From: Halothiobacillus sp.
Lineage (GTDB): Bacteria > Pseudomonadota > Gammaproteobacteria > Halothiobacillales > Halothiobacillaceae
Length of the DNA stretch: 59,648 bases
Assembly: GCA_011389965.1 (NCBI GenBank)
Contig: JAABTF010000009.1
Location: forward strand, 1-59,648
Reading direction: 5' to 3'
Shown: positions 26,319 to 34,952 of the stretch, piece after piece
Numbering within the stretch: position 1 is the stretch's first letter
Layout of the letters: each line of letters opens with the position of its first letter
Position numbers and translations under genes: made by a program
The notes under the pieces: model-generated
What the model was told of the DNA's origin: nothing
The model's database searches: none
The model's input: only the letters and a program-made list of their open reading frames with translations

Positions 26319-26984
26319 ATGAATAACACCGACCAAGGCAAGCAGCTGGCCGCTCAGGCAGCGATCGATTACGTTCCATCCGGCAGCGTGGTGGGCGTGG
26401 GCACCGGCTCGACCGTCAACTTCTTCATTGACGAACTGGCCAAGATCAAGAACCGCATCGAAGGGGCGGTTTCGAGCTCCGAGGCCAGCACAAAGCGTCT
26501 GCGCGACCACGGCATCGAGGTGTTCGATCTCAACAGCGTCAACGAGATCCCCGTCTATGTGGATGGCGCCGACGAGTCCAACGAGAACCTGCAACTGATC
26601 AAGGGCGGCGGTGGCGCACTGACCCGCGAGAAGATCATCGCCCACATGGCGAAAAAATTCGTCTGCATCGCGGACGAAACCAAGCTGGTCGACGTGCTCG
26701 GCGCCTTTCCCCTGCCGGTGGAGGTGATCCCCATGGCCCGCAGCATGATCGCCCGCGAGCTGGTCAAGCGCGGCGGCCAGCCGGTCTATCGCGACGGCTT
26801 CGTCACCGACAATGGCAACCAGATCCTCGACGTGCACAACCTGCGCATCATGGAACCTGCCAAGCTGGAAACCGAACTCAACGACATCCCCGGAGTCGTA
26901 ACCGTTGGCATTTTCGCCCTCCGCCCGGCGGATGTGCTGATCCTGGGCACCGCAGACGGAGACATTCGCAAGATTGACGGGTAA
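26319..26984 (+). CDS. rpiA: ribose-5-phosphate isomerase A
   Basis: A 221-residue isomerase interconverting ribose 5-phosphate and ribulose 5-phosphate in the non-oxidative pentose phosphate pathway. The phosphate-binding motif is [16 protein letters not shown] near residue 27, with catalytic loops [11 protein letters not shown] and [12 protein letters not shown]. Full family length. The next gene, a secreted retropepsin-like protein, begins four bases after the stop, so rpiA appears to be translationally linked to a functionally unrelated cluster. Confidence 0.96.
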
Positions 26985-26988
26985 ATCC

Positions 26989-27519
26989 ATGCGCGGATAT
27001 CGAATCGCGCGTTCCGGCCTACTGAGCGCTGCCATGCTGGCCTGTTTTCTGGCCGTCTCTTTTCTGGCCGCCCCGGCCCAGGCCAAAGACAAGACGCACA
27101 AGCAGATTTTCGGCTACATCGAGGATGTGCGGGTCATGGAGCTGGAGCGCCACATGCGCGCGAAGCTCGATACCGGGGCGACCACCTCGTCGATCGATGC
27201 CCGCGAGATCGAAAAGTTCGAAAAGGACGACGAAGACTGGGTTCGCTTCACGGTAGTCAACCGCGACACCGAAGAACGCCAGATCCTCGAAGAGCCGATC
27301 ACCCGCATCGTCCACATCAAGCGTCATGGCAAGGACTCGCAGGAACGCTATGTGGTGGATCTGGATTTCTGCATTGGCGATCGACTCATATCCGATGAGG
27401 TCAGCCTGACCTCGCGCAAGAAGTGGAACTATCCTCTGCTGGTGGGTCGAAATCACCTCGCGGGCCACGTGCTGGTGGACTCCTCCGTCAAGAACACCCG
27501 CGCGCCAAGCTGCGATTGA
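26989..27519 (+). CDS. periplasmic retropepsin-like aspartic protease homologue
   Basis: A 176-residue exported protein. A signal peptide (Arg-rich start, hydrophobic LLSAAMLACFLAVSFLAA, APAQA cleavage site near residue 32) precedes a domain with the single aspartic-protease motif AKLDTGATTSSIDA (Asp61-Thr-Gly). Later come VVDLDFCIGDRL and KKWNYPLLVGRNHLAGHVLVD, the pattern of the PF05618 family. One Asp motif in a small domain implies that two chains form an active site, as in retroviral proteases. Databases call this family ATP-dependent zinc protease, but I see no HExxH and no ATP-binding motif. It is the first gene of a trio with the transglutaminase/7TM protein and an ATP-grasp ligase. 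ATG 26989 follows rpiA by four bases. Confidence 0.88.
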   Translation: MRGYRIARSGLLSAAMLACFLAVSFLAAPAQAKDKTHKQIFGYIEDVRVMELERHMRAKLDTGATTSSIDAREIEKFEKDDEDWVRFTVVNRDTEERQILEEPITRIVHIKRHGKDSQERYVVDLDFCIGDRLISDEVSLTSRKKWNYPLLVGRNHLAGHVLVDSSVKNTRAPSCD

Positions 27520-27643
27520 TCGCCGCGGCCACCGGCCCAGATCCTGGGGAAACCGGATACTGGGGGAACTTGCGACCGGGCCACGGTCTACCCCCTCCTG
27601 ACAACCCTTTCCTGCCGCCCCGCCCGGAGTCCTGCCCGCGATC

Positions 27644-29203
27644 ATGAGACGTCTTCACCTACTGTTCGTTGTGCTGCTGCTGACCGTCGTCGGCTTGTCG
27701 GTCGCCTGGTACAAATACAACACCCTGGGCTTCCCCTTGACGCCGGACCGGGAGACAGAGACCTGGACGGTCGAGGCACAGATCGCGGTGAATCCGGGCC
27801 AGGCACCGGCCTCGGTGCATTTCGCCCTCCCCACCGATCCGCCGCATTACTCGGTGCTCGACGAAAGCTATGTCTCCCGCGGCTGGGGGCTGACCAACCA
27901 GTTCACCAAACGGCAGCGGGAAGCGGTCTGGACCAAGCGCGACCCCGAGGGCAAGCAGACGCTCTACTACCAGGCCACCGTCTATCGGGCCCAGGAAGAG
28001 ATCCAGCCCTCTCCCTACCCCGGACCGGCGGATCCACCGCAACTCGAGGAACCGCTCAAGTCTGCAGCCGAGGCGTTCATCGAGGAGATTCGCGCCACCT
28101 CGGCAGACATCCAGACCTTCGCCACCCTGCTGGTCAAGGAAGTCAATGCCGCCAACCCGCACGAGAACATCGCCGCGTTTCTCAAACCCGATGCTACCGA
28201 GACCGAGCGGACCCGCTTGGCCATCCGCCTGCTCTCGATCGCGCGCATCCCGGCCCGCATGACACACGGCGTGACGCTCACCGACGAGGGGCGCAATCTA
28301 CGCCCGACCACCTGGCTCGAGGTGCACAATTCGCGGCGCTGGGTACCGATCGATCCGCGCACTGGCAGCTTGGGCTATCCGCGCCACTTCCTGGTCTGGT
28401 GGCACGGCGACCGGCCGGCGCTGGACAGCTCGGGACTCAAGGGGGCCGAACTGACGTTCGCCAGCACGCGCAACCTGCGTGATGCGGTGGAAACCGCCCG
28501 GCTCCAGTCAAGCATCGTCAATTCGCGGCTGATCGACTTCTCGCTGCTCGACCTGCCGATCGACGCCCAGAATACCTACCGGGTGCTGCTACTGGTGCCC
28601 CTGGGCGCCTTGATCATCGTGTTGCTGCGCAATGTGATCGGCATCCGCACCTTTGGCACCTTTATGCCGGTACTGATCGCGCTGTCATTTCGTGAGACGC
28701 AGCTGATCGGTGGCGTGATGCTGTTCACGCTGATCGTGGCAATGGGGCTGGTGATCCGCTTCTACCTCGAGCACCTCAAGCTGCTGCTCGTGCCGCGACT
28801 GGCGTCGGTGGTGATCGTGGTGATCCTGCTGATGGCGCTGACCAGCATCGTCTCGCATCGCCTCGGCATCGAGATCGGCCTGTCGGTCGGCCTGTTCCCC
28901 ATGGTCATCCTCGCGATGACCATCGAACGGGTGTCAATCGTTTGGGAGGAGCACGGACCAGCGGACGCCCTCACCCAGGGGGCCGGCTCACTTGCCGTCG
29001 CCGCGCTCGCCTATCTGGTCATGGTCAATGACTACGTGACCCATCTGTTCTTCGTCTTCCCGGAACTACTGCTGGTGGTGCTTGCCGTGACGCTGCTGCT
29101 GGGCCGGTACACCGGCTACCGGCTGACCGAGTTGTTCCGGTTCCGCGCCTTCAAGACGCTGGCCCAGGCACGTCGTCCCGACTCAGCCGGGGACAACCGC
29201 TGA
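27644..29203 (+). CDS. inactive transglutaminase fused to a 7TM membrane domain
   Basis: A 519-residue membrane protein. An N-terminal signal/anchor helix (about 5-23) is followed by an extracytoplasmic transglutaminase-like domain (about 30-290) and then about seven hydrophobic helices (about 305-500: for example VLLLVPLGALIIVLL and LFTLIVAMGLVIRFYL). The TGase core segment IARIPARMTHGVTL is recognisable, and I find no cysteine anywhere in the chain, so the Cys-His-Asp triad cannot form; the domain is probably a binding module. This matches the known inactive-transglutaminase/7TM family (PF14400 plus PF14402). It lies between the retropepsin and the ATP-grasp ligase, its constant partners. 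The stop overlaps the ligase start by one base. Confidence 0.9.
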   Translation: MRRLHLLFVVLLLTVVGLSVAWYKYNTLGFPLTPDRETETWTVEAQIAVNPGQAPASVHFALPTDPPHYSVLDESYVSRGWGLTNQFTKRQREAVWTKRDPEGKQTLYYQATVYRAQEEIQPSPYPGPADPPQLEEPLKSAAEAFIEEIRATSADIQTFATLLVKEVNAANPHENIAAFLKPDATETERTRLAIRLLSIARIPARMTHGVTLTDEGRNLRPTTWLEVHNSRRWVPIDPRTGSLGYPRHFLVWWHGDRPALDSSGLKGAELTFASTRNLRDAVETARLQSSIVNSRLIDFSLLDLPIDAQNTYRVLLLVPLGALIIVLLRNVIGIRTFGTFMPVLIALSFRETQLIGGVMLFTLIVAMGLVIRFYLEHLKLLLVPRLASVVIVVILLMALTSIVSHRLGIEIGLSVGLFPMVILAMTIERVSIVWEEHGPADALTQGAGSLAVAALAYLVMVNDYVTHLFFVFPELLLVVLAVTLLLGRYTGYRLTELFRFRAFKTLAQARRPDSAGDNR

Positions 29204-30183
29204 TGGCGATCAACTGGCCGATATCACCTCGACGGCTGCGCGAACTTGGCGTGCTGGGCATGAACCAGCGCAATGGGGAGTTCATCGCCGAGTTGAATAC
29301 GCGGCGCTATTACCCGCTGGTCGACGACAAGCTATTGAGCAAAGAGCTAGCCGTCGAGGCGGGCCTCTACGTACCGGAACTCTACGGAGTGATCCGAACC
29401 ACCCACGAATTCAAGGGGCTCTCAAAGCTGGTCGGCCAGCACGAGGAATTCGTCATCAAGCCGGCCAACGGCGCCGGTGGCGACGGCATCCTGGTAATCG
29501 ACGGCAAGCAGTCCGATCACCCCCTGGTCTACCGGCGGGGGTCGGGCCGACCGATCGACATCGACGCGATTGCGCTCCACATATCCAACATCCTCGCCGG
29601 GGCCTACAGCCTGGGCGGCCGGCCCGACGTGGCCATGATCGAATACCGGGTCAAGTTCTCGCCACTGTTTGCCAAGATCAGTTTCCAGGGCGTGCCGGAC
29701 ATCCGCACGATCGTCTACAAGGGCTACCCGGTGATGGCCATGGTACGGCTGCCCACCAGCCAGTCCGATGGCAAGGCGAACCTTCACCAGGGTGCCATCG
29801 GAGCGGGCGTCGACATGGCCCTAGGCCGCACCCTCGATGGGGTGGCCCACAATGCGCAGGTGATCCACCATCCGGACACCCTCGAGCCAATCCAGGGAGT
29901 AGAGATTCCGGGGTGGCAGTCACTGCTCGAGATGGCCGCCACTTGCAGCGACATCACCGGCTTGGGGTACATCGGGGTGGACGTGGTCCTCGACCGGGAC
30001 CGGGGTCCGCTAATCCTCGAACTCAATGCCCGTCCGGGGCTCTCCATCCAGGTTGCAAACGGTGAGGGATTACGTCACCGTATCGAACGCATCGACCGGC
30101 ACTTGAAGTATCTGAATCGCCCGGAGAACGCCGCCGAGCGGGCCTGCTGGTCGCGTGAGAATCTCGCCCCCCTGAACCTTTGA
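29203..30183 (+). CDS. RimK-related ATP-grasp alpha-L-glutamate ligase-like protein
   Basis: A 326-residue cytoplasmic ATP-grasp enzyme resembling the TIGR02291 family (RimK-related glutamate ligase). Motifs are EEFVIKPANGAGGDGILV (nucleotide-binding Lys and glycine loop, about 85-102), the central KISFQGVPDIRTIVYKGYPV, and the Mg-binding GPLILELNARPGLSIQV (about 269-285). RimK relatives add amino acids through an acyl-phosphate; the acceptor here is unknown. The ATG overlaps the upstream stop as TGATG, so it is tightly coupled to the 7TM protein. A simple reading is that the ligase makes a peptide-like product inside the cell, and the membrane protein and protease act on or sense it outside. 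That is inference. Confidence 0.9.
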   Translation: MAINWPISPRRLRELGVLGMNQRNGEFIAELNTRRYYPLVDDKLLSKELAVEAGLYVPELYGVIRTTHEFKGLSKLVGQHEEFVIKPANGAGGDGILVIDGKQSDHPLVYRRGSGRPIDIDAIALHISNILAGAYSLGGRPDVAMIEYRVKFSPLFAKISFQGVPDIRTIVYKGYPVMAMVRLPTSQSDGKANLHQGAIGAGVDMALGRTLDGVAHNAQVIHHPDTLEPIQGVEIPGWQSLLEMAATCSDITGLGYIGVDVVLDRDRGPLILELNARPGLSIQVANGEGLRHRIERIDRHLKYLNRPENAAERACWSRENLAPLNL

Positions 30184-30195
30184 CAAGACACCATC

Positions 30196-31050
30196 ATGTC
30201 CCAGCTTTTCGCCGTAATCGGCAATCCGATCGAGCATTCGCGCTCCCCCATGATTCACCAGAGCTTTGCCCGGCAACTAGGCATCGACCTGACCTATGAA
30301 AAGCTCTGGGCCGCCATCGACGGCTTCGAAGAAGCGGTGAATGCGTTCCGCGAGCGGGGCGGCCGGGGAATGAACGTCACGGTCCCATTCAAGCTCGAGG
30401 CGTTTGACCTTGCCGAACGCCGCAGCCCGCGGGCTGAGCGGGCTCTGGCAGCGAATACCCTGGTATTCCCCGACTCGGCCGACAAGCCTGTCTACGCCGA
30501 CAACACCGACGGCGTCGGGCTGGTCAACGATCTTGCCTTCCACGGGGTCACGCTTGACGACAAGCGGATCCTGATCCTGGGTGCCGGTGGGGCGACCCGC
30601 GGCGTGCTCGCCCCGCTGCTCGAGCAAGCACCGCAGGAGGTCCTGATCGCCAACCGCAATCCGGAGCGCGCCTACGGCCTGGTGGAGGAATTCCGCGACG
30701 CGGCGGGCGAATGCCGTCTTTCCGGCTCTCCGCTCGAAGGCATCGAGGAAAGCCTGTTCGACCTGATTGTCAACGCCACTCCCGCCAGCCTCACGGCCCA
30801 GCTTCCGCCCCTGCCGGATGGGTTGGTGGGCGCACACACCGTCGCCTACGACATGGCTTACGGCGCCGAACCGACTGTGTTCATGCAGTGGGCCGAGGCC
30901 CGCGGCGGACGGCCGCTCGACGGGCTGGGCATGTTGGTCGAACAGGCTGCCGAGAGCTTCTATCTCTGGCATGCCCAACGCCCCGACACCACGCCGGTGC
31001 GCGAGGCCTTGCGCCAAAACATCCGAAAGAAGGCGGATCAGGAAGAATAG
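30196..31050 (+). CDS. aroE: shikimate dehydrogenase
   Basis: A 284-residue NADP-dependent enzyme reducing 3-dehydroshikimate to shikimate. Shikimate-binding residues are in NPIEHSRSPMIH. The catalytic Lys is Lys66 in MNVTVPFK with partner Asp in YADNTDGVGLVNDL. The NADP Rossmann loop is LILGAGGATRGVLAPL, then NATPAS and GLGMLVEQAAESFYLW. It starts 12 bases after the ATP-grasp gene and is probably co-transcribed with that trio, though no functional link is known. Confidence 0.96.
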   Translation: MSQLFAVIGNPIEHSRSPMIHQSFARQLGIDLTYEKLWAAIDGFEEAVNAFRERGGRGMNVTVPFKLEAFDLAERRSPRAERALAANTLVFPDSADKPVYADNTDGVGLVNDLAFHGVTLDDKRILILGAGGATRGVLAPLLEQAPQEVLIANRNPERAYGLVEEFRDAAGECRLSGSPLEGIEESLFDLIVNATPASLTAQLPPLPDGLVGAHTVAYDMAYGAEPTVFMQWAEARGGRPLDGLGMLVEQAAESFYLWHAQRPDTTPVREALRQNIRKKADQEE

Positions 31051-31113: not shown

Positions 31114-31551
31114 TCAACGCCCCGAGGCGCGTTCCTCGTCGGGGCGGTTGACACGCATCAACAGGAGCGCTTCGCTTTCGGACAGACCGAAATCATCGAT
31201 CAGTTCCTCGACGCTCACCCGCCCCTGGGCCGCCAGGCGCAGCGCGTGCCCGAACCCGGGCTCGTCGTCGTCCGCGGCGGCAACCGCGTCAATCCGCGCA
31301 TTGAGTTGCGTCACCCGCTCCTCAAGTTGCCCGGCACGCTCGTCCACGTGGTCAAGATGACGCCCGAATCCCGCCAAGGCGGACTCCAGACCGCGATGCT
31401 CGCGCTCCAGTCGCTCCATCTGGTGCTGGAACCAGCGCTCTCGGGTCAGCTGGGCGTGGCGCAAGCCACGGTAGCTACGCAGTGTCACCAGCAGACCGAT
31501 CAGCGCGAGAACCAGCGCGACGGCGGTAACCCAGATCACGGGGACAGTCAT
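31114..31551 (-). CDS. DUF2802 membrane-anchored protein, end of the chemotaxis operon
   Basis: A 145-residue protein. One N-terminal helix (VIWVTAVALVLALIGLLVTL) precedes a long charged coiled-coil segment (about 30-90: ERWFQHQMERLEREHRGLES, then ERAGQLEERVTQLNARID). The C-terminal domain AAQGRVSVEELIDDFGLSES has the look of a small helix-turn-helix. This matches DUF2802, typically the last gene of polar-flagellum chemotaxis operons after cheW. Its start overlaps the cheW stop as ATGA, so it is translated with it. The function is unestablished; a pole-associated membrane factor is one guess. Confidence 0.82.
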   Translation of the reverse strand: MTVPVIWVTAVALVLALIGLLVTLRSYRGLRHAQLTRERWFQHQMERLEREHRGLESALAGFGRHLDHVDERAGQLEERVTQLNARIDAVAAADDDEPGFGHALRLAAQGRVSVEELIDDFGLSESEALLLMRVNRPDEERASGR

Positions 31552-32054
31552 GTGGCGGTAATGTCGGAAAGACTCTTCATGTCGACGAGGATAATCAATT
31601 TCTCATCCTGGGGCACGATGCCGAGAATATGTCGCGCCCGGTCGTCGTTCACTGACATCATCGCCTGATCGACCACCGACTCCGGAAAGGCGATCACCTC
31701 GGCGACGCTGTCGACAACCAGACCGACGATCTCCCCTGACGCCACCTCGATCACCATGACGCGGCTGTTCTCGTCGTGCTTCTTTTCCTCGAGACCGAAG
31801 AAGATCCGCGCATCCACCACGGTAACCACGTTGCCACGCAGATTGATGATGCCGAGGATGGAGTCCGGCGCGCCCGGGATAGGCGTGATCTCGGCATCCC
31901 TTAGCACCTCCTGGACATCCAGGACATTGAGCGCGTAGATTTCCTCGTCCACCGTGAAGCTGACCCAGCGCGACAGCGGCCCCTTGTCCTGCGCCTCGAA
32001 CTCCTCGTCGTATTCTTCCGGGGTTTGCCGCTGTTGCATTGCTTGTTCCGTCAT
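31548..32054 (-). CDS. cheW: chemotaxis coupling protein CheW
   Basis: A 168-residue CheW that links receptors to the CheA kinase. After an acidic N-terminal tail of about 25 residues (EEYDEEFEAQDKG), the SH3-like CheW fold has WVSFTVDEEIYALNVLDVQEVL, a PGAPDSILGIINLRGNVVTVVD block (about 60-82) and GIVPQDEKLIILVD near the end, all typical. It follows the ParP-like gene by 41 bases and overlaps the DUF2802 gene. A full-length single-domain CheW beside the ParP CheW-like protein shows division of labour rather than duplication. Confidence 0.96.
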   Translation of the reverse strand: MTEQAMQQRQTPEEYDEEFEAQDKGPLSRWVSFTVDEEIYALNVLDVQEVLRDAEITPIPGAPDSILGIINLRGNVVTVVDARIFFGLEEKKHDENSRVMVIEVASGEIVGLVVDSVAEVIAFPESVVDQAMMSVNDDRARHILGIVPQDEKLIILVDMKSLSDITAT

Positions 32055-32095
32055 CTCTCAACCCTCGTTTTCTTGCCCTGGCGACCGACAGCCGC

Positions 32096-33022
32096 TCAGT
32101 TACGGTTCTTCAACGCCGCTCTCAGTCCCTGCGCGTCCAGCACGGCCACGCCGGCCGAGGGGGCGGTGCCGGCCAACCAGCCGCGACGCGCTTGTCGTTG
32201 TTCGTCCGAACGCCATTCCACCGCTTTGGCTTTCAGCGCGGCCGGTTGCTCGACCCGTTCTCCCATCACGCCCCACAGGCCGCCGTTGCCGAGAAGGAAT
32301 ACTTCCTGATCCGCGTCCGCTCGTGAACGCGCTCCCGTGAGACCGGCAAGCGACAGAATCAGCCGCGGACGGCCGTCTACCTCCAATGAGCCGGCAATAT
32401 GTGCCGGTGCACCGGGTACCGGCGTCAACGTCGGCTCGGGATGTCGGGAAACGATGTCTTGTGCAGGCAATGCCATCAGCATCTTTCCGACACGCAACCA
32501 GCCCCAAGGAGACGCCTCTCCGATCTCAGCCGACCCAGCAGGCTCTTCTGTCTGCTCCACCTCCGTGGGCTGATCGACGACTGCATTTTCCACGCCGAAA
32601 GCCTCGGAGGCCACGTCTTCGGCGTCGGCGTCGGCGTCTGTTGGAGCCTCAAGCATTGGCTCCTCAGCGGTTTCCTCGGCACTATCAGCAGACTGCTCGA
32701 CAATCGCCTCCGGATCGGCAGTGACCGTATCCGATGGCGTCTCCGGTGCTTGCGAGGCAGACGAAGGCGTTACCTCGGAAGGCGAGTCGGCCGTGGTGGT
32801 GTCGGTCGGGTCCGGCAGATCCTCGGTGAGCGCCTCCTCCTCGACCGATTCGGCGACATTGATCACCTTCAGGCCGGGGGCCCGGCGAGTCCGAGGCGGC
32901 TGCGGCGAGATTGGCTCGGGACCATCCGGATCGCGCAGCAGCCCATCGAGGTAGTCGGTGATGGCGGCGTCCTGGTCCACCATCGAATGGCGCTCCCCAG
33001 CATGCTGTTTTTCGATTGCCAT
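32096..33022 (-). CDS. ParP-like protein with C-terminal CheW-like domain
   Basis: A 308-residue protein with three parts: a short N-terminal segment (MVDQDAAITDYLDGLLRD around 14-31), a long low-complexity acidic Glu/Thr/Pro/Ala region (about 60-180), and a C-terminal CheW-like domain (WLRVGKMLMALPAQDIVSRH, then PGAPAHIAGSLEVDGRPRLI). This layout and the place between a ParA-like gene and cheW match ParP of Vibrio, which tethers CheA/receptor arrays to ParC at the pole. ATG 33022 overlaps the parA stop as TGATG; the ORF extends 46 codons upstream into parA and that part is not used. The CheW-like domain is divergent, so it probably binds CheA without being a standard coupler. Confidence 0.8.
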   Translation of the reverse strand: MAIEKQHAGERHSMVDQDAAITDYLDGLLRDPDGPEPISPQPPRTRRAPGLKVINVAESVEEEALTEDLPDPTDTTTADSPSEVTPSSASQAPETPSDTVTADPEAIVEQSADSAEETAEEPMLEAPTDADADAEDVASEAFGVENAVVDQPTEVEQTEEPAGSAEIGEASPWGWLRVGKMLMALPAQDIVSRHPEPTLTPVPGAPAHIAGSLEVDGRPRLILSLAGLTGARSRADADQEVFLLGNGGLWGVMGERVEQPAALKAKAVEWRSDEQRQARRGWLAGTAPSAGVAVLDAQGLRAALKNRN

Positions 33023-33858
33023 CAGCGTGACTCCTTGACCTGAGCACTCGGCGAGGGCGGAATGGTCTCCATGTCGGGAGCGGCCTCGCTCACGTGTGAC
33101 TCCAGCCAACCCAGGAATGCCCCATATGCCTGGCTGCCGCGTGCGCTCGGGTTGATCCACGGCAAGGGCTTGCCCAGCCGGCTGGCTTCGCGGAATTGGG
33201 TATCGACCGGTATTACGTCCGGCCAGACATCGTCATCGTAGCGATCATGCAAGATGCGGAGCGTGTCATGGGAGGCGCGTGTGCGACGGTCAAACATGGT
33301 CGGCAAGATCACGTATTCCAGCCGCTGCTGTCGCGAGCGCTGCACCATCGCCAATGTGCGCAGCATGCGCTCGAGACCCTTGAGGGCAAGAAATTCGGTC
33401 TGCACCGGCACGATCAGAAACTCGGCCAGGGCAAGCGCATTGACCATGGTCACGCCCAGAATGGGCGGGCAGTCGATCAGCACGTAGTCGTAGTCGTCGC
33501 GGATGCGCTCGATCGCCCGCTTGAGCACCAGACCCATACCGTCGCGCATGCCGAGTTGGCGATCGAGGGTGGCCAACGCGGTCGATGCCGGCATCAGGCT
33601 GATGCCGTCGAAGGAGGTGGGATGCACCACGCGCGTGGGGTCGAGTGGCTGACCGTCGGCGGCCGACTTGAACAGCGAGTACACGCTCGCCCCCGGCGCC
33701 TCCGGCTCCATGCCGAAATAGACCGTCATCGAGCCATGCGGGTCGAGATCGACCAGCAGGACACGACGGCCCTGGCGGGCGAGATGACCGGCGAGCGAGA
33801 CGCTGGTGGTGGTTTTACCCACCCCGCCCTTCTGGTTGGCAACCGCCCATATCTTCAT
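33022..33858 (-). CDS. ParA-like ATPase, ParC type
   Basis: A 278-residue deviant Walker ATPase. The Walker A motif is NQKGGVGKTTTSVSL with the signature Lys10 and Lys15, Walker B-like RVLLVDLDPHGS, and DYVLIDCPPILG. Position after cheB and before the ParP/CheW genes fits ParC, which positions chemotaxis arrays at the pole, rather than a chromosome-partition ParA; there is no parB here. It overlaps cheB by four bases (ATGA). It is distinct from the other MinD-like ATPase in the window, FleN. Confidence 0.87.
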   Translation of the reverse strand: MKIWAVANQKGGVGKTTTSVSLAGHLARQGRRVLLVDLDPHGSMTVYFGMEPEAPGASVYSLFKSAADGQPLDPTRVVHPTSFDGISLMPASTALATLDRQLGMRDGMGLVLKRAIERIRDDYDYVLIDCPPILGVTMVNALALAEFLIVPVQTEFLALKGLERMLRTLAMVQRSRQQRLEYVILPTMFDRRTRASHDTLRILHDRYDDDVWPDVIPVDTQFREASRLGKPLPWINPSARGSQAYGAFLGWLESHVSEAAPDMETIPPSPSAQVKESR

Positions 33859-34952
33859 CGCAATGCTCCTCCAATGGCCGCGCCGATCTGCGTCAGCGGC
33901 AGGATGGCTTCCGCCAGATTGGCCTTGGCGATCGCCGCCGGCATGCCGTAGATGACACTGCTCGCCTGATCCTGGGACCAGACGTGCCCATTTTTCGCCA
34001 CCACGTCGCGGGCGCCGTCAGCGCCGTCATCACCCATACCGGTAAGGACGACCGCCAGCAGGTCGTCCCCCGCCACCCGGGCCGCCGAGGAAAAGGCAAG
34101 GGTGACGCTGGGACGGTAATGTTCATTGCTCACGGGCGCGCGCAGGTTCAGCTTATAAGCGCCGTGGCGTCCCGCTATCTCGCCGTGCTGACCGCCGGGA
34201 ATCACGTAACCGACCCCCGGGCGCAGGACCTCGCCGTCCTTGGCCTCGATCACCTGGATGGGCATGGAATCATTAAGGCGCTGGGCAAACGGTCCGGTAA
34301 ACGCTCCAGGCATGTGCTGAGCGATGAGAATCGGCAGGGGAAAACCGGTCGGCAGTTTGCCTAGAACCGCCGGCACCGCCGCCGGGCCACCGGTCGAGGC
34401 ACCGATCACGACAAGACCCTGACGACTGAGAAAACCGCTGGGCGCCGCCCTTTGCTGGCGCGTTCCCGCGGAATACGTGGCGGGTCTTGGCGGGGGGGCC
34501 GCCCTCTCCGTGGCCGCCGGTGCCGATCCGCCAGCGCGGCCATTTTCGCGCTGGGAGCGCAGCGCCAGCATGCGCACCCGCGAACACAGCCGGCGCCCCG
34601 AACGCGCCAGGGTGTCGTCCGGGTCGTCGCCATTCTTGGGGAAGAAGTCCACCGCGCCGGCATCGAGGGCATCGAGGGTTGCCTCGGCACCGGCCTTGGT
34701 CAGCGCGGACAGCATCAGGATCGCCGTGGGGCAACGTTCGGTGATGCGCCGGACCGCGGAGATGCCGTCCATGATCGGCATCTCCACGTCCATGGTCATG
34801 ATGTCCGGCTTGAGCTCGCAGGCCTTGAGGACGGCCTGGCGGCCATTGGATGCCTCACCGACCACTTCCAGCCGGGGGTCGCTGGAGAAAACTTCTCGCA
34901 GCGCCCGGCGGAAAAACAGGGAATCATCAACGATCAGAATCCGGATGGGCAT
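33855..34952 (-). CDS. cheB: protein-glutamate methylesterase CheB
   Basis: A 365-residue response regulator that demethylates and deamidates chemoreceptors for adaptation. The receiver domain has DDSLFFRRAL and phosphoacceptor Asp55 in DIMTMDVEMPIMDG. A Ser/Ala/Pro linker (about 130-170) precedes the methylesterase domain with catalytic Ser in VVIGASTGGPAAV, His in IAQHMPGAFTGPFA and Asp in GMGDDGADGARDV. The partner methyltransferase cheR is not in the window and may be elsewhere in the genome. The gene starts three bases after cheA ends. Confidence 0.96.
   Translation of the reverse strand: MPIRILIVDDSLFFRRALREVFSSDPRLEVVGEASNGRQAVLKACELKPDIMTMDVEMPIMDGISAVRRITERCPTAILMLSALTKAGAEATLDALDAGAVDFFPKNGDDPDDTLARSGRRLCSRVRMLALRSQRENGRAGGSAPAATERAAPPPRPATYSAGTRQQRAAPSGFLSRQGLVVIGASTGGPAAVPAVLGKLPTGFPLPILIAQHMPGAFTGPFAQRLNDSMPIQVIEAKDGEVLRPGVGYVIPGGQHGEIAGRHGAYKLNLRAPVSNEHYRPSVTLAFSSAARVAGDDLLAVVLTGMGDDGADGARDVVAKNGHVWSQDQASSVIYGMPAAIAKANLAEAILPLTQIGAAIGGALR

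Follow-up and report, generated by a model that had tools for sequence, protein, structure and literature searches.

A Guyparkeria rloABC operon and its relatives: a putative membrane-coupled acidic polymer trimmed by a secreted retropepsin

What could a secreted aspartic protease, a membrane protein with a disabled transglutaminase domain and a cytoplasmic ATP-grasp ligase be doing together? Three consecutive genes raise this question in the stretch of DNA analysed here (the window, 59,648 nucleotides), whose genome belongs to Guyparkeria, with G. hydrothermalis R3 and others as closest named relatives (85-87% RloB identity). The trio is the rloABC operon, as published for Pseudomonas aeruginosa by Lormand et al. 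in 2025 (PMC12239564), and its features are as follows.

26319..26984, + strand: rpiA, left border of the presumed inserted block (context; profile match)
26989..27519, + strand: rloA, secreted retropepsin-like aspartic protease (PF05618), 176 aa (ORF and profile match; solved relatives 9g59, 9g58 and 2pma)
26989..27084, + strand: RloA signal peptide, aa 1-32, ending ...AAPAQA/KDK (translation, by inspection)
27169..27177, + strand: RloA catalytic Asp61-Thr-Gly (Asp and Gly in 66/66 aligned RloA)
27644..29203, + strand: rloB, membrane anchor, pseudo-transglutaminase and 7TM domain, 519 aa (ORF and profile match; AlphaFold2 model)
27755..28483, + strand: RloB periplasmic transglutaminase-like domain, aa 38-280, lacking the catalytic Cys and His (triad columns; model match)
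28559..29170, + strand: RloB C-terminal membrane domain, aa 306-509, with FGTFMP and LFP motifs (PF14402; motifs invariant in 72 sequences)
29203..30183, + strand: rloC, cytoplasmic ATP-grasp ligase (TIGR02291, PF14397), 326 aa (ORF and profile matches)
30196..31050, + strand: aroE, right border of the presumed inserted block (context; profile match)

The five genes run in the order rpiA-rloA-rloB-rloC-aroE and are all co-directional, with the ATG of rloA 4 bases downstream of rpiA. The same A-B-C order was found at three named Guyparkeria loci (L025-L027). A search of the operon for a sigma-70-like promoter or a terminator gave none beyond chance, and RNA folding of the 124-base gap between rloA and rloB showed nothing unusual. 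Beyond aroE, on the opposite strand (31114-34952), CheW-like, ParA-like and CheB-like genes form a chemotaxis cluster by inspection.

Already known from P. aeruginosa (PMC12239564), besides the operon name, are the hypo-osmotic phenotype of rlo mutants, which is accompanied by cell-shape and cell-wall antibiotic phenotypes, the cleavage of polyglutamate by RloA, which needs runs of at least 8 glutamates in vitro, and a genetic rescue in which deletion of rloB or rloC fully restores growth of an rloA triple mutant. In low-salt medium three secreted RloA paralogues are redundantly required, and RloA depends on Arg and Asp residues of its channel both in vitro and in vivo; the authors describe the physiological substrate as unknown (PMC12239564). 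The initial annotation had linked related Pseudomonas genes to osmotic-stress tolerance, rightly so; with the publication of that link the system has a name and a partial characterisation. The window resembles the P. aeruginosa operon in genes, order and domain architectures and in a retropepsin with DTGA, a Cys pair and an Arg-lined channel. It differs in its place between rpiA and aroE, in the single rloA-type gene detected in Guyparkeria (genome about 85% complete) against three in P. aeruginosa, and in its scores: the NCBIfam RloA1/A2/A3 and RloB models match the window proteins strongly, yet under their cut-offs, which appear to be tuned to Pseudomonas.

The initial annotation had staked its reading beforehand on membership of PF05618, PF14400/PF14402 and TIGR02291, and profile searches place all three proteins in these families. 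RloA, called there a secreted protease with Asp61-Thr-Gly, matches PF05618 (E=2e-38), and the other marks of a secreted RloA are all present in the window, namely a hydrophobic N-terminal signal sequence ending AQA-K (by inspection), the full motif Asp61-Thr62-Gly63-Ala64 (DTGA) and the Cys pair. In the 66 aligned RloA sequences no variation occurs at Asp61, Gly63, Ala64, Arg120 and Arg143; 64 of them have Arg106, the Lys59 column holds K or R, and the two cysteines are kept in 63 (Cys128) and 44 (Cys175). On our reading of the alignment with the solved RloA structure, the conserved residues would be the published catalytic Asp, the glutamate-contacting residues and the disulfide; the window protein thus appears to keep every polyglutamate-contact Arg column (R106, R120 and R143, in 64-66 of 66) together with Lys59.

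The second protein had been described as a 7TM protein with a cysteine-free transglutaminase domain, and this is what we find. RloB matches PF14402 (E=1e-103) and PF14400 (E=5e-45), giving the inactive-transglutaminase plus 7TM architecture expected of RloB, and comprises an N-terminal membrane helix, the transglutaminase-like domain and a C-terminal helical membrane domain. Its AlphaFold2 model has a mean pLDDT of 84.6, and the transglutaminase-like domain of the model aligns with 3isr at Z 15.5 over 222 residues. The triad columns read Glu, Thr and Asp (E/T/D) in place of the Cys-His-Asp of an active transglutaminase or cysteine peptidase. The C-terminal tail of the window protein is basic, which suggests that this end is cytoplasmic.

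For the fold of the membrane domain no convincing relative was found among solved structures (best Z 7-8.6), and a PDB sequence search with RloB or with this domain gave no match. NqrD of Na+-NQR, an Rnf subunit and ALMT channels came up when the domain was predicted alone (Z 6-7), and the Rnf subunit again with the whole-protein model (Z 8.6); all are within the noise for helical proteins and were rejected. A match of a protein from genome G396 to PF14402 was taken as false, as the protein resembles a Na+/solute symporter. In PgsBCA/CapBCA, a cytoplasmic amide ligase works with a small membrane subunit that exports polyglutamate. The comparison with rlo is one of working principle, since the PgsBCA ligase is of the Mur type and homology of PgsC/CapC with the RloB membrane domain is unproven: by eye GILIPALLAL recalls GTFMPVLIAL, Pfam has no cross-match between the two, and hhalign of PgsC/CapC (PF14102) against the 7TM domain gave at most 2% probability (E 0.02-0.5) in misregistered alignments, with a CapC profile that is shallow (Neff 1.6-2.5) and for whose deepening the relatives are too few. 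As a separate observation, some genomes of another Pseudomonadota class encode proteins of 1081 aa that carry two CapC domains in tandem (L140:8480-11722; also L014-L024), with a sensor-kinase-like gene upstream and very large secretion-like proteins downstream.

The third gene had been called a cytoplasmic ATP-grasp ligase whose ATG overlaps the preceding stop; rloB and rloC do overlap by one base (TGATG), and RloC scores 437 bits against TIGR02291 (cut-off 314) and E=1e-88 against PF14397. PF14401 (RLAN), a first guess for its family, was wrong. Against the RimK model TIGR00768 it reaches 41.8 bits over residues 243-281 only (cut-off 143.4), so that by profile RloC is a relative of the RimK family and not a member of it. 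A profile built from 31 RloC proteins and searched against the PDB (E<=0.001) found only RimK-type ligases, cyanophycin synthase and the tubulin polyglutamylase TTLL7. These three kinds of enzyme all attach acidic amino acids. The motifs that align with RimK are the metal-binding ELNARPG (D/E/N metal ligands), GVD and DxR / NLHxG. RloC lacks most of the first 87 residues of RimK (position 30 of the RloC profile aligns with RimK 88), and since most of that N-terminal domain is missing its substrate may differ from that of RimK.

RimK itself forms a regulatory complex with RimB, a cytoplasmic homologue of RloA that cuts polyglutamate and stimulates the synthesis of poly-alpha-glutamate by RimK (PMC11957791). 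The RimK-RimB pair, which serves S6 glutamylation and poly-alpha-glutamate synthesis, is like rlo in its homologous ligase and protease and in polyglutamate as the protease substrate, but it is cytoplasmic, has no RloB and its RimB has no signal peptide. The window's genome carries a separate RimK/RimB locus (G000:C16 = L143:2644-5257), an operon of RimK, a protein similar to DoeB, the deacetylase of the ectoine pathway, and RimB.

To see how firmly the three genes are held together, we searched 229 Gammaproteobacteria for PF14402, PF05618 and TIGR02291, leaving out TIGR02291 matches below 50 bits as RimK or other ATP-grasps and counting four third-clade RloB homologues apart. RloB and RloC occurred together in 42 genomes, and none of the remaining 187 had one of them on its own (Fisher p=6e-47); within the canonical and active-transglutaminase clades they were never separated. 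The initial annotation had supposed that all three genes are co-inherited, which holds for rloB and rloC (42/42 vs 0/187) but not throughout for rloA. A PF05618 protein was present in all 38 genomes with canonical RloB and stood beside RloB in 36, the sole copy in the other two being RimB-type without a signal peptide. Among the 104 Guyparkeria-nearest loci (L025-L128), RloA was absent beside RloB in 32, about a third. In 12 genomes that have RloBC with no RloA beside it and were searched genome-wide, secreted RloA was undetected in at least 10 (five had no PF05618 protein and five others had RimB-type only). Since the RloA-less loci are confined to a few clades of the RloB tree, the loss of RloA took place a few times. 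No replacement protease was seen by eye upstream of rloB at these loci.

The block also appears to have moved as a unit. In each of 10 genomes from sister genera whose flanks were long enough, aroE comes immediately after rpiA, and in Guyparkeria the trio sits between them; PF14402 was absent from the 16 family members outside Guyparkeria, and Guyparkeria RloB clusters with Ectothiorhodospira, Thioalkalivibrio and a few others. The simplest reading is that Guyparkeria gained rloABC by transfer, which we prefer to its loss in sister genera.

The RloB tree, built by a quick method and to be read with a warning for long branches, splits into a canonical, an active-triad and a third clade, all of them with SH-aLRT of 98-100. 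Of 127 tabulated rows, five have the catalytic Cys, and all five belong to the active-triad clade, which spans 8 genomes and has the motifs ASCNGK, SHQW and PFD (the His motif in G611 was not recognised by the search pattern). RloC follows RloB in 8/8 of these genomes and is followed by an inner-membrane-anchored TPR protein in 8/8 and by a predicted outer-membrane barrel in 7/8; in 4 a TPR lipoprotein lies directly upstream of RloB (operons at L153, L154, L137, L186, L187, L188 and L193). We predict the barrel from a weak match to OMP_b-brl (E 6e-5, under the cut-off) together with signal sequences and the homology of these proteins to one another. In G493 RloB and RloC are fused into one 853-aa ORF (G493:C24 = L133:3431-5989; also L194), the only case seen, with a triad-intact transglutaminase, the 7TM domain and an RloC-type ATP-grasp ligase joined at the RloB C-terminus. 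The operon looks like an export system for a product that crosses both membranes. Exopolysaccharides such as alginate, PNAG and Pel are exported through a TPR protein and an outer-membrane barrel. That layout resembles the active-triad operons, not the window, and no glycosyltransferase was seen in those operons. Literature searches turned up neither the active-triad operon nor the fusion, and the 2009 amidoligase survey (Iyer et al., cited in PMC10318531) may list some of these contexts.

No RloA stood beside active-triad RloB in any of the 8 genomes, and of the six that have this clade alone, three had no PF05618 protein and three had RimB-type only. The idea that the live transglutaminase simply replaces RloA draws on this contrast (secreted RloA in 0/6 vs linked RloA in 36/38 canonical genomes, p=4e-6) and was set aside, being weakened by canonical RloBC that has neither RloA nor a live triad. 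The third clade (8 genomes) has no RloC, and secreted RloA lies nearby in most, often convergent. In three of these genomes (G632, G608 and G651; L190, L191 and L192) a RimK lies less than 4 kb from the RloB homologue, where about 0.02 such neighbours are expected by chance (P about 2e-6). These are bona fide RimKs (more than 400 bits to the S6 ligase model), in two of the three genomes RimB also adjoins, and the copy in G608 is a second, paralogous RimK apart from the RimB-RimK pair elsewhere. Since RimK makes poly-alpha-glutamate, two distinct ligases that share one type of chemistry appear to accompany RloB-type proteins. In G449, too, a ligase related to RimK but from a different subfamily lies 4 kb from a third-clade RloB homologue (L150:10021-11001).

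From these comparisons we put forward, with a probability of roughly one half, that RloB-RloC is an inner-membrane synthase and exporter of an acidic, probably glutamate, chain that RloA trims and that is harmful when untrimmed. RloC would join acidic amino acids, most likely as alpha-linked glutamate, and RloB, to which RloC is coupled, would pass or anchor the chain across the inner membrane as it is extended; the dead transglutaminase domain of RloB would hold the chain in the periplasm. There RloA, as a dimeric retropepsin with an arginine-lined channel, would cut the chain and keep it short. Since loss of rloB or rloC rescues rloA mutants, it is the untrimmed product that would build up without RloA and harm the envelope in low osmolarity. 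The ligase activity, the polymer and the transport step with its direction are what we infer; in support stand the published genetics and biochemistry, the retained polyglutamate-contact columns of RloA, the relatives of RloC, the 42-genome linkage, the fusion, the active-triad operon and the RimK-adjacent third clade. Against it count the absence of most of the RimK N-terminal domain from RloC, a membrane domain with no convincing solved relative, and the location of the envelope-spanning operon in a sister clade and not in the window. Trimming would not be universal, because RloBC persists in several lineages where secreted RloA is not detectable. The initial annotation had proposed a product made inside, sensed or bound by the membrane protein and trimmed outside; the route fits the published epistasis and the comparative data, and the role of sensor is less likely, because the fusion and the envelope-spanning sister-clade operon favour RloB as a channel or platform.

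An unlikely alternative, though one to be taken seriously, is that RloC glutamylates an envelope protein or a peptidoglycan-linked acceptor, as RimK does ribosomal protein S6, that RloA removes the tail after crossing, and that RloB is an assembly factor or sensor and not a polymer channel. Such modification is what RimK/RimB do to RpsF (PMC11957791), and the cell-shape and cell-wall antibiotic phenotypes (PMC12239564) would suit it, but RimK requires a cytoplasmic acceptor, the loci compared showed no additional conserved gene beside rlo that could encode one, and the sister clade, with its TPR protein and predicted outer-membrane barrel, points to a product that is exported. Close to the wording of the initial annotation, and improbable, is a product that is not polyglutamate but a small peptide for signalling or osmoprotection; the transglutaminase-like domain of RloB would sense it and then control RloC, and RloA would degrade it. 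Pseudoenzyme domains are often ligand-binding and the RloA channel is conserved, which speak for such a peptide, but the long glutamate runs that RloA needs in vitro (PMC12239564) do not, and the active-triad clade is an argument that this domain had a substrate to act on in the past.

We give least credence to a model in which RloB transports or anchors, its pairing with RloC serves regulation alone, RloC modifies a cytoplasmic protein and the osmotic defect is indirect. The transport role of RloB is putative and the RimK-RimB complex is likewise regulatory (PMC11957791), but losing either RloB or RloC fully restores growth of the triple rloA mutant (PMC12239564), which places the periplasmic protease downstream of both. 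A broader extension of the preferred polymer reading is tentative and on balance doubtful: RloB-RloC may be the core of a widespread Gram-negative system for poly-amino-acid, probably poly-alpha-glutamate, synthesis and export, with a periplasmic, retropepsin-trimmed chain in the window's branch and, in the other, a chain processed by a live transglutaminase and secreted through a TPR scaffold and outer-membrane barrel.

In Pseudomonas, tolerance of osmotic stress, biofilm formation and sensitivity to antibiotics are under the control of the rlo operon, and the system is medically relevant. The value of the window trio lies in the comparative frame that it opens for this system, as genome comparison newly adds the inseparability of RloB and RloC with its RloA losses, the rpiA/aroE block, the fusion, the active-triad operon and the RimK-adjacent third clade. 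The fusion, this third clade and the live-transglutaminase operons point to one answer, a membrane-coupled acidic peptide polymer, which, if true, would give Gram-negative bacteria a polypeptide, periplasmic or secreted, that has gone unrecognised.
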